A stretch of 64,000 bases of DNA from Planctomyces sp. SH-PL14 (GTDB lineage: Bacteria > Planctomycetota > Planctomycetia > Planctomycetales > Planctomycetaceae), in assembly GCF_001610835.1 (NCBI RefSeq), contig NZ_CP011270.1, positions 3,986,001 to 4,050,000 on the forward strand, written 5' to 3'. The notes beneath the pieces are model-generated. The model saw only the letters and a list, made by a program, of their open reading frames with translations, ran no database searches and had not been told where the DNA came from. Shown here one piece after another: positions 6,767-12,968 of the stretch (positions are counted from its first letter, which is position 1; every line of letters starts with the position of its first letter). A program made the translations under genes and the position numbers.

Positions 6767-7085
6767 CAAACCACGTCCTTGCCGGACGGATTCCGTTAGC
6801 TCAAACCCAACGTGCGACGGCCGCTGGGGTCAAGGGGGTCTCACCCCCTTGCCGCCGGAGGCACTTCCATGAGGAACCTCGGTAGGCAACGGGTGGCCGC
6901 TTTGTGGAACCGGCGTCGAGGACTCACCGCTCGCTCTGCAATCCCCGCGGGTTGGTGAGGGGGCATACGGCACGGTGTCCGCGCTTCGACACGGGCTCCT
7001 TCAGACGTCTCTCGACGAGAGGGCCTCCGGCGGGCAAAGGGGCGTTGCCCCTCTGCACTCCCCACCAGGGTGCCCCTGGACCCGG
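6767..7085 (-). repeat. Dispersed structured repeat, copy 3
   Basis: Reverse-oriented full copy between two convergent genes. It stops about six bases before the stop codon of the radical SAM gene. Confidence 0.85.
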
Positions 7086-8349: not shown

Positions 8350-9468
8350 TCAGTCGCCGCGAAGGGCGTCGGTTGCCTCCACGCGGCCGGCGGGCGCTTC
8401 GGCCGATGGAACGAGCTCGTGCATGAACTGACGCAGGGCGGAAAGGGACTCCTCCAGCCCGTCGCGGACGTTCTCCGACATCGTCCGGACGAACTCGGGA
8501 CGTCGCTCCAGGAACTCCCGAATCTTCCCGGCGTGGAACCGCCGCAACGAGACCCGCATCCCGATCCCCATCCGCTCCACCGCCGCGGCGTTGAGTCGCT
8601 GCTCGACGCACCGTTCCGGCATCACCAGGCACGGTTTGCCCAGGAAGATCGCCTCCCCGATGAGCTGGTTGCCGGCGGTGCTGATGACCGCCCGGCAGGA
8701 GGCCAGGTCTTCGAGGAACGGCAGGTTGCTGAGCGGGAGGAACGTGAGCGAGCCGTGTCGCCCGCGGCGCGAGGAGCCGTAGATGTGGACCGGCGCACCC
8801 GCGTTTTCGAGCGCCGAGAGGATCGCGGGATTGAGCTGGTCGTCGCCGCGGTTGAAGTACGCGAGGAGGTGTTCTCCGTCGGTCGGCTTCTGTTCGCGGA
8901 CCGCCTGTCGGGGGAGCGTGCTGACGACTTTCACAGTGGGCCAGCGGGGGCGGGCCTCGTAGAAGCTGGAGACGAGAACGCGGTCGGGCCGTCCCATGAG
9001 GAGCCGGTAGCAGCGGGTATCGAACCATCCTTCGAACCGGTCGGACCATTCGATCTCGGGCTGGCAGTAGGCCATGATCCCGATGTGGTCGAAGCTGATC
9101 CGCGGGATGCGGAGGACCTTGGCGACGCTGTGGGTCCAGGTCTCGGCGTCGGAGATGATGACGTCCGGGGCGAAGTCCTCGACGGTCTCGCGGATCATGT
9201 CGAAGACCGGGCCGCGCCAGAAGATGTCGAGGGCAGCGGAGGCGTTTCGGCGGAAGGTCTGCCAGTTCGACCGCTGTCCCCCTTTGCGGCCGTACGCGAA
9301 GCCGAGGGTGGGGATCCGGACGGTGGGGAAGTCGCCGGAGAGGGCGGGGTAGGCATCCCCGCCGGCGAGGACGAGCACTTGATGCTCGCGGGCCAGATGG
9401 GGGAGGACGGCAAACGTGCGGGTGGCATGTCCCCGCCCGTAACCGTGAACACCGTACAGGACGCGCAT
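8350..9468 (-). CDS. MurG-like glycosyltransferase (GT-B fold)
   Basis: The 372-residue protein starts with GVHGYGRGHATR, the Gly-rich N-terminal loop of the MJ1255/VC2487-type glycosyltransferases related to MurG. A STAGNQLIGEAIFLGKP stretch near residue 270 matches the sugar-nucleotide binding region of the C-terminal Rossmann domain. It probably transfers a sugar from a nucleotide donor to a lipid or small-molecule acceptor. It is the promoter-proximal gene of a pair with the radical SAM gene. Confidence 0.8.
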   Translation of the reverse strand: MRVLYGVHGYGRGHATRTFAVLPHLAREHQVLVLAGGDAYPALSGDFPTVRIPTLGFAYGRKGGQRSNWQTFRRNASAALDIFWRGPVFDMIRETVEDFAPDVIISDAETWTHSVAKVLRIPRISFDHIGIMAYCQPEIEWSDRFEGWFDTRCYRLLMGRPDRVLVSSFYEARPRWPTVKVVSTLPRQAVREQKPTDGEHLLAYFNRGDDQLNPAILSALENAGAPVHIYGSSRRGRHGSLTFLPLSNLPFLEDLASCRAVISTAGNQLIGEAIFLGKPCLVMPERCVEQRLNAAAVERMGIGMRVSLRRFHAGKIREFLERRPEFVRTMSENVRDGLEESLSALRQFMHELVPSAEAPAGRVEATDALRGD

Positions 9469-9746
9469 CGCGATGCCTTCCTGGCGTCTTGAGCAGTCTC
9501 CTCAACCGTGCGCTGGCGGCGAGTTTTCTCGCTCGGACAACGGCGGGTTTCCACAAGACGGAACCGGCAGACGAGAGGAAACGACTCCGGATGTTCCCAA
9601 CAGGAGTCGTTGACGGCGGTCCTGGCCACCGTTGCGGGACTATCGTCTGGGAATGTGAGGGGAGGATGAGATTTGCGTGTAGTGCCTCGATTTGGAGGAA
9701 ACGCGACGCGAGTCGTTCACTGGCGCGGCGCTGACCTCGCTGATCA
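9469..9746. other. Intergenic spacer, nothing recognised
   Basis: About 280 bases between the glycosyltransferase start and repeat copy 4. It presumably holds the glycosyltransferase promoter, but no convincing hexamers, hairpins or reading frames were seen. Confidence 0.5.
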
Positions 9747-10089
9747 CCGGGTCCAGGGTCCCCCTGGTGGGGAGTGCAGAGGGGCCTGTGTCGTTTTCTT
9801 GGGCCCTTTGCCCGCCGGAGGTCTGGCCGTCGAGAGATGTCTGAAAGAGTGAGTGTCCAAGCGCGGACGACGTGCTGGATGCCCCCTCATCAACCCACGG
9901 GGATTGCAAAGCAAGCGTTGTCGATTGAGGGAGTCTTCATAGCTGGTTCCACAAAGCGGACATCCGTTGTGTCCCACGGTTCCTCATGGAAGCGCCTCCG
10001 GCGGCAAGGGGTCGCCCCCTTGACCCCAGGCTGCCGTGGCACGTTGGGTTTGAACTATCGGAGCCGTGCCTGCAAGGACGTGGTTCGAG
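9747..10089 (+). repeat. Dispersed structured repeat, copy 4
   Basis: Forward full copy between two divergent genes. The left hairpin carries the alternative CTGTGTCGTTTT-type loop, while the right hairpin has the short loop. Confidence 0.85.
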
Positions 10090-10113
10090 CCATCCCCTTC
10101 ACCAACAACAATC

Positions 10114-10143
10114 TTGACAGGCAAGTGATGACTTGCATATCAT
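10114..10143 (+). promoter_or_regulatory. Promoter with embedded operator for the ArsR-type gene
   Basis: TTGACA at 10114-10119 and TATCAT at 10138-10143 are separated by 18 bases. The spacer holds the perfect inverted repeat GCAAGT-GATG-ACTTGC (10121-10136), placed where a bound repressor would block RNA polymerase. The adjacent gene encodes an ArsR-type regulator, so autoregulation is likely. Predicted transcription start is about 10149-10151, at the ATG. Confidence 0.72.
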
Positions 10144-10148
10144 CCGCC

Positions 10149-10442
10149 ATGGCTGACGTGTTCGAAGCTTTAGCCGCACCAGCCAGACGAGCGATCGTCG
10201 ATGCCCTGCACGAACGGGACGGCCAGACGCTGTTCGAAATCTGTGCCCGCCTGACGATGAGGCACAACCTCACACTGACTCGCCAGGCGATCTCGCAGCA
10301 CCTCGAGGTCCTGGAAGCGGCCGGCCTCGTCAGCACGAAGCGCGAGGGTCGGTACAAGTTCCACTATCTCGATACCACGCCGCTCCAGGACGCCATCGTG
10401 AATCGCTGGCTCACACCGACTCCAAAGGAAGGCGAAAAATGA
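10149..10442 (+). CDS. ArsR-family winged-helix transcriptional regulator
   Basis: The 97-residue protein begins with the family-typical ADVFEALAAPARRAIVDAL. A helix-turn-helix spans about 35-70 (LTRQAISQHLEVLEAAGLV) and a wing follows (REGRYKFHYL). It lacks the metal-binding Cys motif of ArsR/SmtB, so it belongs to the metal-independent group often paired with VOC or SRPBCC proteins. Start choice: the upstream ATG at 10128 lies before the predicted -10 box, so the ATG at 10149 is used, giving a leaderless or nearly leaderless mRNA. Its stop overlaps the next ATG. Confidence 0.88.
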   Translation: MADVFEALAAPARRAIVDALHERDGQTLFEICARLTMRHNLTLTRQAISQHLEVLEAAGLVSTKREGRYKFHYLDTTPLQDAIVNRWLTPTPKEGEK

Positions 10443-10825
10443 AGATCGTCGTGACGAGCGTTCTGGTTGATGACCAGGAGAAGGCGTTTCAGTTCTATAC
10501 ACGGATCCTCGGCTTCACCAAGAAGCACGACGTTCCGATGGGACAGTTTCGCTGGCTGACCGTCGTCTCTCCCGGCGATCTGGACGGCGTCGAGCTGCTG
10601 CTCGAACCGGACCAGCACCCGGCGGCGGGGCCCTTCAAGCGGGCACTGGTCGAGGACGGCATTCCGTTCACGTCGTTCGGCGTCGACGACGCACAGGCCG
10701 AATACGACCGGCTCACCGCCCTGGGAGTCCGCTTCACCCAGCCGCCCACCGCCATGGGTCCCGTGACGACAGCGGTCTTCGACGACACCTGCGGCAACCT
10801 CATCCAGATCGCGCAGAAACACTGA
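10439..10825 (+). CDS. VOC-family (glyoxalase/bleomycin-resistance-like) protein
   Basis: 128 residues with the two beta-alpha-beta-beta-beta modules of the vicinal oxygen chelate fold. The protein begins KIVVTSVLVDDQEKAFQFYT and ends with VFDDTCGNLIQIAQ, both typical of PhnB/glyoxalase-like proteins. The Glu-type ligand in the last strand is replaced by Gln, so metal use is uncertain. It is translationally coupled (ATGA) to the ArsR-type regulator, a common pairing in which the regulator controls a small detoxification or resistance enzyme. Confidence 0.85.
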   Translation: MKIVVTSVLVDDQEKAFQFYTRILGFTKKHDVPMGQFRWLTVVSPGDLDGVELLLEPDQHPAAGPFKRALVEDGIPFTSFGVDDAQAEYDRLTALGVRFTQPPTAMGPVTTAVFDDTCGNLIQIAQKH

Positions 10826-10913
10826 GTGCGATCAACTGTTCGCTCGAAGAGTCCACGGCTTTCCGGTCTCAGTGCCTGCGCCTCTCGGAACTCGACGACC
10901 GGAGATCGTCCCA

Positions 10914-11336
10914 ATGAAAACCGTCTTACGCACCGTGGCGGCGATCGTCGCCGGGACGTTCGTGTTGTTCGCCCTCATCGTCGCGGTCGAACTGTTCAGC
11001 GCGGTGGTCCATCCGCTCCCCGAAGGCTCCGTGGCCACCAAAGAGGAGATCTGCCGGCACGTGTAGCGGTACCCGCCCTGGGTGCTGGCCGTTGTCGTCC
11101 CCGCGTGGGCGGCTGCCGCCTTCGCCGGCACCTGGACAGCGCGAAGGATCGGGAACATGTATTCCGCCGCAGTCGTTGGGTTGCTCCTCCTCGCGGCCGT
11201 CGCCTGCAACGTCTCAATGCTCCCCTATCCGACGTGGTTCAAGGTGGCGAACCTGCTCGTGATCCCCATCGCCGTGCTCGCCGGCAGTCGCCAATCAAAG
11301 CGTCCCGCAGTGACAGCCATCGACGATCGCGTCTGA
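10914..11336 (+). pseudogene. Membrane protein gene interrupted by an in-frame TAG
   Basis: A reading frame from the ATG at 10914 (GGAG ribosome binding site upstream) encodes a signal/transmembrane helix and ends at TAG 11064-11066. The same frame continues without further stops to 11336 with three more hydrophobic segments. The junction ICRHV-stop-RYPPWVLAVVV reads as one continuous protein, so a single sense codon (probably CAG or GAG) has become TAG. Intact length would be 140 codons. It is either a recent pseudogene, a sequencing error or a readthrough gene. Confidence 0.65.
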
Positions 11337-11417
11337 ACGACGGCCAATTCCCGTGAACCGCTGACGGGACCGCAGTACGATGCCGGTTGGATCTCCACAC
11401 TCTCTGATTTCGACATC

Positions 11418-11897
11418 ATGCACCGCGTTGGACTGGGACACGACACGCACCGCCTCGGCCCGGGATTGCCTCTCATCCTGGGGGGAGTCACCGTCCCGCA
11501 TGAGACTGGCTGCATCGCCCACAGCGACGGCGACGTCCTGCTCCACGCGGTCACCGACGCGCTGCTTGGCGCGTGCGCCCTGGGGGACATCGGCGAGTGG
11601 TTCCCCGACACCGATCCGCAGCACAAGGGGGCGGACTCCGGCGAGCTCCTGCTCAAGGTCCTCAATGACGTCCACAGCCGCGGCTGGCGAGTGGTCAATC
11701 TCGACTGCACCGTTTTCGCCCAGCGGCCTAAGCTCTCGCAGTACAAGCGGACGATCGCCCAGAACGTGGCCCGCCTCCTCGGCCTGGCGGCGGACCGGGT
11801 GAGCGTGAAGGCCAAGACCGGCGAGCGGGTCGGTCCCGTCGGCCGCGAAGAGGCGATCGAGGCGAGCGCGATCGTGCTGCTGGAGCGGGCGCACTGA
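11418..11897 (+). CDS. ispF: 2-C-methyl-D-erythritol 2,4-cyclodiphosphate synthase
   Basis: The 159-residue protein matches IspF in length and motifs. Metal ligands D9 and H11 (GHDTH) and H43 (HSDGDVLLHAVTDALLGA) are present. The later conserved segments KAKTGERVG and EEAIEASA are also visible. It converts CDP-methylerythritol 2-phosphate to the cyclic diphosphate in the MEP isoprenoid pathway, in the cytoplasm as a trimer. No other MEP-pathway gene lies in the window, so it appears to be a single-gene unit. Confidence 0.96.
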   Translation: MHRVGLGHDTHRLGPGLPLILGGVTVPHETGCIAHSDGDVLLHAVTDALLGACALGDIGEWFPDTDPQHKGADSGELLLKVLNDVHSRGWRVVNLDCTVFAQRPKLSQYKRTIAQNVARLLGLAADRVSVKAKTGERVGPVGREEAIEASAIVLLERAH

Positions 11898-11968
11898 GAC
11901 GAGGTTCTCAGTCGTCAGCGTAGGCCGCCGGGAGCATGTTCCCCGAGCCGTGACTGACGAAGGAGCGT

Positions 11969-12538
11969 TCAGCCGACGCGGGCCTGCTGCGGTCCGCCGG
12001 TCGAACGGTTCGACATCAGCGTGATCCGCGCGCTGTAGTAGTGGCAGAGCGCGATCGCCGTCGCGTCGGCGACGTCGTTCGGCTCCAGGATCCGGCTCAG
12101 GCCGAGTTCCCGTTGCACCGCCTGCTGGATCTGCGACTTGTCTGCCGTTCCGCTCCCGGTGAGCAGCTTCTTGACCTGCTTCGGCGAATAGTGGACGACG
12201 TCGAGCCCCGCGTCCGCCATCGCGAACAGCAGCGCTCCGCGGGCATGGGCCATCAGCAGCGCGGACTTCGGGTTCTTCGTCAGCGAGAACACCTGCTCGA
12301 TCGCGACCGCCTGCGGCCGGAACTCCTCAAGCACTTCCCGCAGCCCCTGGCCGATCTCAAGCACGCGCTCGGCGAGCGGCTTCGAAACGGTCGAGCGGAT
12401 GACGCCCCCTTCGATCAGCCGCGGGCCGCGGTCGGTCCGCTGGAGGACGCTGTAGCCGGTCCGGTTGAGGCCCGGATCGATCCCGAGATATCGCTCGGAA
12501 ACGGGCCCCGCGAAGGCATTTCCCACGGCAAACGCCAT
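11969..12538 (-). CDS. ruvC: Crossover junction endodeoxyribonuclease RuvC
   Basis: The Holliday-junction resolvase has its first catalytic Asp in GIDPGLNRTGY (D21), Glu in AIEQVF (E81), and the C-terminal acidic pair in NDVADATAIALCHYY. The QVKKLLTGSGTADKSQ segment is also typical. At 189 residues from the ATG at 12538 it is close to the usual length; the open frame extends further upstream to 12913 only through repeat copy 5. ruvB is some 36 kb away and ruvA was not found in the window, so the genes are not in one operon. Confidence 0.95.
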   Translation of the reverse strand: MAFAVGNAFAGPVSERYLGIDPGLNRTGYSVLQRTDRGPRLIEGGVIRSTVSKPLAERVLEIGQGLREVLEEFRPQAVAIEQVFSLTKNPKSALLMAHARGALLFAMADAGLDVVHYSPKQVKKLLTGSGTADKSQIQQAVQRELGLSRILEPNDVADATAIALCHYYSARITLMSNRSTGGPQQARVG

Positions 12539-12728: not shown

Positions 12729-12968
12729 CCGGGGTCCAGGGGCTCGCCCCTGGTGGGGAGTGCAGGGGGGCCACGCCCCCTTGCCCGCCGGAGGCCTGGC
12801 CGTCGAGAGATGTCTGAAGGAGCGCGTGTCCAAGCGCGGACAACGTGCCGGATGCCCCTCACCAACCCGCGGGGACTACGAAGCGAGCGGTGAGTCCTCA
12901 ACGCCGATCCCACAAAGCTTTCGTCCGTTGCTGACCACGGTTCCTCATCGAAGTCCCTCCGCCGGCGT
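12729..12968 (+). repeat. Dispersed structured repeat, copy 5 (3'-truncated)
   Basis: Forward copy between divergent ruvC and the BlaI-type gene. It ends within the CCTCCGCCGGCG of the right-hand hairpin, so the right terminal hairpin and tail seen in other copies are missing. Confidence 0.8.

Follow-up and report, generated by a model that had tools for sequence, protein, structure and literature searches.

The arsR-VOC locus

The window, the whole 64,000-nucleotide stretch of Planctomyces sp. SH-PL14 DNA that was analysed, contains a small ArsR-type regulator gene (arsR) whose promoter elements, inverted repeat and start codon are packed within 38 bases, followed by a gene for a protein of the VOC/glyoxalase fold and by a third gene interrupted by an in-frame stop codon (Table 1).

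Table 1. Coordinates of the arsR-VOC features, counted from the first letter of the window
Feature	Position	Strand	Evidence or remark
-35 hexamer, TTGACA	10114..10119	+	direct reading and promoter scan; TTGACA in 43/79, TTGATA in 18/79
Operator, 7-4-7 near-palindrome GGCAAGT-GATG-ACTTGCA	10120..10137	+	79/81 sequences; single exact genome match
Perfect 6-4-6 core, GCAAGT-GATG-ACTTGC	10121..10136	.	direct reading
-10 hexamer, TATCAT	10138..10143	+	direct reading and promoter scan; TANNNT in 75/79
Gap from -10 to start codon, CCGCC, 5 nt	10144..10148	+	5-9 nt in 78/79
arsR start codon, ATG	10149..10151	+	direct reading
ArsR/SmtB-type regulator (HTH_20/HTH_5), 97 aa	10149..10442	+	Pfam; NCBIfam NF033788 above cut-off
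Recognition helix T44-R45-Q46-A47-I48-S49-Q50-H51-L52	10278..10304	+	residues 44, 45, 46 and 50 covary with the half-site in the family
VOC/glyoxalase-fold gene, 128 aa	10439..10825	+	overlaps the arsR stop (ATGA), after AAGGAAGG; Pfam Glyoxalase 75 bits
Third gene, small membrane-type protein by its letters	10914..11336	+	in-frame TAG at 11064-11066

The regulator: Membership of the ArsR/SmtB superfamily follows from the Pfam models HTH_20 (42 bits; cut-off 27) and HTH_5 (27.9 bits; cut-off 22), and the NCBIfam subfamily model NF033788, named metalloregulator, scores 58.3 bits against a cut-off of 55. ArsR/SmtB metal sensors are defined by paired metal-ligand cysteines, for instance a CxC motif in the DNA-binding helix. 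The window protein has a single cysteine, C32, which makes a classical paired-cysteine metal site unlikely, and arsenic sensing through paired cysteines was rejected on the same ground.

The downstream genes: The Glyoxalase match of the second gene far exceeds the Pfam cut-off of 20.6 bits and places its product in the VOC superfamily; the glyoxalase I (lactoylglutathione lyase) model TIGR00068 reaches just 22.8 of 120 bits. The nearest relative of solved structure, 4g6x (E 1.7e-49), bears no more specific name than glyoxalase/bleomycin resistance protein/dioxygenase. Among the best 80 of at least 406 relatives of the regulator, a VOC gene comes next after arsR in 76, and the projected 4-nt overlap of the two genes is common to 47. 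The third gene is a probable member of the operon. Both of its pieces match adjoining stretches of the same five loci (L009, L010, L011, L119 and L110, of which L110 and L119 are one gene and L009 may be the same gene again), and either it was recently broken or positions 11064-11066 carry a sequencing error. From this gene content we infer a small detoxification or ligand-handling operon, for which the substrate itself or a similar compound would serve as inducer.

A dispersed repeat: The 38-nt core of a dispersed repeat occurs eight times in the window, on both strands and with at most three mismatches (at 9808, 12781, 22570, 33080, 36747, 42199, 50064 and 54123; none in shuffles). Longer copies span 6769-7070, 9804-10085 and 12748-12966, and one copy ends ~30 bases upstream of the arsR promoter.

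Conservation of the promoter-operator cassette

The first-pass annotation had described TTGACA-N18-TATCAT enclosing a perfect 6-4-6 inverted repeat, and this arrangement is borne out by the letters. The operator, 18 nt long, fills the spacer between -35 and -10 exactly, and the one mismatch of its 7-4-7 unit (G/A) falls on the outermost pair. A promoter scan of positions 8500-12500 returned a single site, the promoter at 10114-10143, against a mean of 0.3 in shuffles, and across the 8.44-Mb genome the pattern GGCAAGTNNNNACTTGCM is matched exactly just once. The gap between -10 and ATG is at the short end of the family range, and the first T of the -10 lies 11 nt 5' of the ATG. Formal alternative starts in the arsR frame are ATG at 10128, GTG at 10125 and GTG at 10158, the last of which, codon 4, is the next in-frame start codon after 10149.

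Conservation was assessed in 81 sequences, the window and the best 80 of at least 406 relatives, which were picked on protein similarity alone and, by record title, are mostly actinobacteria, with five planctomycetes, a single Trueperaceae and a single Occallatibacter. The operator, with at most three mismatches in 14, is present in 79 of the 81: 34 sequences have no mismatch, 24 have one, 17 have two and four have three, and GCAAG and CTTGC are invariant except for one letter. Within these 79, TTGACA or TTGATA abuts the operator in 61 and a TANNNT -10 is found in 75. The start codon lies 5-9 nt past the -10 in 78 of the 79 (gaps of 5, 6, 7, 8 and 9 nt in 3, 38, 31, 5 and 1 sequences), and the first T of the -10 sits 12-13 nt before the start in 69. 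In 78 operator-anchored sequences, information per site rises from 0.14 bits upstream to 1.55 in the -35 and 1.32 in the -10; the half-sites reach 1.76 and 1.77 and the loop 0.36. The anchoring itself favours the half-sites but leaves the values for -35, -10 and flank unaffected. Conservation is confined to the cassette. The layout is thus confirmed as real and beyond chance, mainly because the operator is kept in 79 of the 81 sequences.

One of the two sequences that miss the operator is cut by a contig end (L056). In the other (L043) the operator lies ~517 bp upstream, before a 3-dmu-9_3-mt gene, with arsR second; L016 was counted as having an operator, although its copies stand in tandem, at 37 and 74 nt. 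In Phytoactinopolyspora halophila (L137) the operator is followed first by a 3-dmu-9_3-mt gene and then by arsR, an order indicating that genes under the same operator can swap places. One record titled Sporosarcina (L081) led to a phylum sample in which some genomes are also those of the actinobacterial sample, so its title may be wrong or its assembly mixed.

Co-occurrence of operator and regulator

Of 392 genomes from the window's phylum, those seven with the best matches to the regulator (E 2.3e-28 or lower) each carry the operator ahead of it, with 5-196 nt from -10 to start; the next match (G016, E 6.1e-22) is without the exact pattern and has a variant of it (L125). In a sample of 246 actinobacterial genomes, the full composite pattern occurs seven times, each directly before this regulator, and its reversed control gives no match. 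The regulator itself, at E 1.7e-27 or lower, is present in 12 of the 246, with the exact composite in seven of the 12 and variants in the remaining five.

The bare operator pattern was rejected as a marker for the phylum: it occurs at 18 places in 16 of the 392 genomes, against ~32 matches of the reversed control, so that only its position beside the regulator is informative. The places in G078, G025, G052, G268, G015 and G071 have neither this regulator nor TTGACA, and the genes downstream of the G103 place and of a second G035 site gave no Pfam match for the fragments tried. In one Dactylosporangium genome two additional operators stand ahead of other genes, one for a second VOC protein (L138) and one for an AHSA1 protein (L144). 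For the window's genome, a wider regulon was rejected on finding one exact operator only; with up to two mismatches, on both strands, the operator has 29 matches there against 104 for the reversed control. Co-occurrence, together with the single genomic site, favours a local autoregulator here.

Proposed switch and the leaderless start

The operator overlaps the promoter of its own regulator, as would be expected of an autoregulated ArsR gene, and we consider it quite likely that the locus is a leaderless, self-repressing arsR-VOC operon in which an ArsR dimer on the spacer operator blocks its own promoter. An ArsR-type dimer would bind the 18-bp palindrome between -35 and -10 with a recognition helix in each half-site, thereby excluding RNA polymerase from the regulator's own promoter. 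A small ligand or a modification may then release the dimer, after which the transcript would begin on, or next to, the A of the start codon; translation of the regulator would be leaderless, and that of the overlapping VOC gene coupled to it. The compact autoregulated switch proposed in the first-pass annotation is supported by the conservation described above, autoregulation and leaderless translation being its predicted components. Comparative evidence likewise supports its placing of promoter, operator and start codon at or beside a putative transcription start.

Leaderless genes are common in actinobacteria. Since the relatives are mainly actinobacteria, the statistic on start-codon spacing is chiefly an actinobacterial one. 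With 5-9 nt between -10 and start codon, a Shine-Dalgarno site cannot fit, and together with the 11-bp distance in the window this makes the arsR start at 10149 a probable leaderless start. In bacterial leaderless genes a -10-like signal lies ~12 bp before the start codon (Zheng et al., PMC3160421). The leaderless genes of Actinobacteria and Deinococcus-Thermus described in the accessible text of that paper have a -10-to-start spacing similar to the one seen here; the word Planctomycetes does not occur in its main text.

The switch could also repress itself and yet be transcribed from an upstream start, the short gap between -10 and ATG being incidental. The second gene has a AAGGAAGG site, as this reading would allow, and diverged relatives keep the same operator with 15-196 nt from -10 to start: 32 nt in L121, 15 in L122, 19 in L124, 196 in L123 and 24 in L159, with the matched domain beginning after 36 nt in L190, L191, L193 and L195. 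For a paralogue in the window's own genome (L002), the candidate start codons are GTG at 8 nt and ATG at 17 nt. Gaps of 15 nt or more behind the same operator mean that the switch does not need a leaderless start, which would be a common and not an obligatory part of the design. The non-leaderless transcript is nevertheless improbable for the window, given the concentration of the gap at 6 and 7 nt in the 79 sequences, the absence of room for a Shine-Dalgarno site and the match to the spacing reported for leaderless genes in the available text of PMC3160421. It is far less probable still that another regulator binds the palindrome and that the ArsR protein acts elsewhere: operator and regulator co-occur, the operator letters are predicted by helix residues across paralogues, and in Mycobacterium tuberculosis, Rv2034 binds its own promoter at a site of the predicted kind (PMC3338718, accessible part). 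The self-repressing, probably leaderless arsR-VOC operon is accordingly retained as the preferred reading.

Covariation of recognition helix and operator

Regulators at 44-56% identity have other 7-4-7 palindromes in the same promoter slot. An earlier promoter-weighted scan mis-framed several of these sites and was replaced by an 18-nt slot scan that uses palindromicity and promoter match, leaves the half-site letters unused, has a score cut-off of 20 and was rechecked without the promoter. Of 233 distinct regulators, 177 have a slot scoring 20 or more and the other 56 have none; among 699 shuffled upstreams, 7 reach this score. The promoter-blind check yielded 86 loci with exactly one perfect 7-4-7 palindrome, of which 61 have a TTGACA-like hexamer nearby (54 exactly at -6, abutting) and 30 a TATAAT-like hexamer (20 exactly at +18, abutting).

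Autoregulation fixes the position of each regulator's site, so that comparison can show which DNA letters an ArsR helix selects. In the half-site, residue 44 appears to read letter 5, residue 45 letter 2, residue 46 letters 3-4 and residue 50 letter 6. We regard it as somewhat probable that the branch shares the arrangement TTGACA-[7-4-7 operator]-TANNNT, in which the operator would be an exchangeable insert and the helix, written r1-r2-r3-r4-x-x-r7-H, would code for letters p2-p6. The rules are as follows: for p2, R at r2 gives G, Q gives A and L gives T; for p3-p4, Q at r3 gives CA, F or Y gives TG, I or P gives TA and T gives TC; for p5, S, T or C at r1 gives A, and A, K or R gives G; for p6, Q or N at r7 gives G, and K or R gives C. 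A first version, in which helix position 4 (A/S) set letters 2-4, was contradicted by L104 and L077 (SRQS with GCAAG), and letter 5 was in consequence assigned to helix position 1.

The agreement is nearly complete in counts drawn from the 177 sites, which omit sites with disagreeing halves, other letters or residues outside the classes, include many close relatives as separate rows and use residue classes set partly after seeing the data. At r7 and letter 6 (n=170), K/R goes with C in 57 and Q/N with G in 112; the sole exception is probably L134, for which the scan took a site other than GGCAACCAAATGGTTGCA. For r3, Q has C at letter 3 in 118/118 and F/Y/I/P/T has T in 51/51 (n=169), and at letter 4 (n=165) F/Y has G in 26/26 and Q/I/P has A in 139/139. 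A/K/R at r1 has G at letter 5 in 11/11 and S/T/C has A in 157/157 (n=168), and R at r2 has G at letter 2 in 167/167, with other residues having other letters in 10/10 (n=177).

Tests of the code

The rules were fixed before L234-L310 were obtained. They cover 46 of the held-out regulators, 21 scoring 20 or more and 25 poorly scored, a set that omits L283, a second entry for the already seen gene L130. Both halves have all the predicted letters in 18 of the 21 well-scored regulators (148 of 152 letters); three of the 21 have T at r3 and only one or two letters predicted. Of the 25 poorly scored regulators, 14 have all of theirs (119 of 162 letters). Many of these held-out helices resemble those behind the rules. 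When helices were redealt among the 21, 5.1 on average and at most 10 fitted in full, and shuffled upstreams fitted the rules by chance in 41 of 920.

Several regulators go against the code. MQHL helices (L226, L271, L272 and L273) have TGTGATA-type sites and DR[CT]T helices (L192, L196, L197, L204, L268, L270 and L232) have TGTTATA-like sites; L261, with R at r7, has G at letter 6. L186, L188, L245 and L256 fit in part, and D or P at r1 (as in L295 and L304) falls outside the classes. In the DRCT regulators L192, L196, L197 and L204, TATA and TGTCAA flank the TGTTATA-type palindromes, and this slot does not resemble TTGACA-N18-TATAAT.

Agreement between helix and operator could instead reflect shared subfamily ancestry and no residue-by-base reading at all, which we hold to be possible and clearly the less likely of the two. 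On a tree built without the helix columns, letters 2-5 rest on 2-4 changes for each pair, the classes were grouped partly after the fact, and even residue 50 and letter 6 have just three independent pairs on well supported branches, too few for a sign test; all of this suits common descent. Over the whole tree, however, r7 changes 10 times, letter 6 changes 11 times and their joint label 11 times, and none of 3000 simulations of independent change at a matching rate reached the observed agreement of 169 in 170 (highest 0.906). L126 keeps the insertion of the window's clade and yet has K together with GCAACC, and the held-out fits likewise argue against ancestry as the whole explanation. A reading code thus remains our favoured, though guarded, interpretation, and it is directly testable by single-residue and single-base swaps. 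If true, it would make the operators of many uncharacterised ArsR proteins readable from a few residues and ArsR sites findable in genomes without experiments.

Comparison with known systems

The self-repressing ArsR switch is a type already known. What the window adds is an operator-as-spacer cassette, an unusually clean natural switch that planctomycetes, actinobacteria and a few further groups have retained, in most cases with the start codon joined directly to it. Among the open-licence literature matches listed, neither such a cassette nor a helix-operator code for ArsR was found, and a prior description is possible. The A-G letters of NolR, from Sinorhizobium, fit the code if its helix letters are what we presume them to be.

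Recognition codes or factor-site correlations have been published for the LacI, GntR, MerR and IclR families, as far as the accessible text of those reports goes. The accessible parts of PMC8509827, with its sites in figures only, PMC4838322 and PMC9416677 provided no usable operator. The SdpR-type autorepressors (NF033789) resemble the window regulator, which matches their profile over residues 4-84 (E 4.3e-13) and, at 49 bits against a cut-off of 100, is not a member by that model. For NolR, the available text of PMC12445080 gives the consensus (A/T)TTAG-N9-A(T/A), which is compatible with two half-sites spaced as in the window; the stricter motif (A/T)TTAG-N8-GA(T/A)G is not symmetric, unlike the window operator, and NolR has many target genes, unlike the window switch.

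The closest parallel described is Rv2034, an ArsR-type regulator with a 4-nt-spaced palindrome immediately before its own start codon (this and what follows from the accessible part of PMC3338718). Footprints and gel shifts place CCGTAAGT-N4-ACTTACGG there; gel shifts were stronger with both half-sites or 4-nt spacing, and a single half-site or 8-nt spacing was still bound. Rv2034 represses itself in a reporter, and the metals tested gave no relief. It also acts on other genes, some positively, with hundreds of sites reported, and is in this respect unlike a one-target switch; repression at the window's promoter is predicted from the operator's position and by analogy with Rv2034. Downstream of it lies Rv2035, with a polyketide_cyc2 domain, where the window has a VOC gene.

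The Rv2034 half-site, GTAAGT, shares letters with the GCAAGT of the window and has T at letter 3. Its footprint, GTAAGT-N4-ACTTAC, was read after the rules were set and appears to fit the code: the rules, in which P at r3 was taken from one locus (L004), predict GTAAG for the helix SRPAVSQHL, a helix seen in two mycobacterial loci found by pattern (L311 and L312) and not in Rv2034 itself. In both loci it stands behind CGTAAGT-N4-ACTTACG, which sits 4 nt upstream of the start codon and outside any TTGACA slot; the pattern CGTAAGN6CTTACG is present in two of seven genomes, six of Mycobacterium/Mycolicibacterium and G397, of the same kind.
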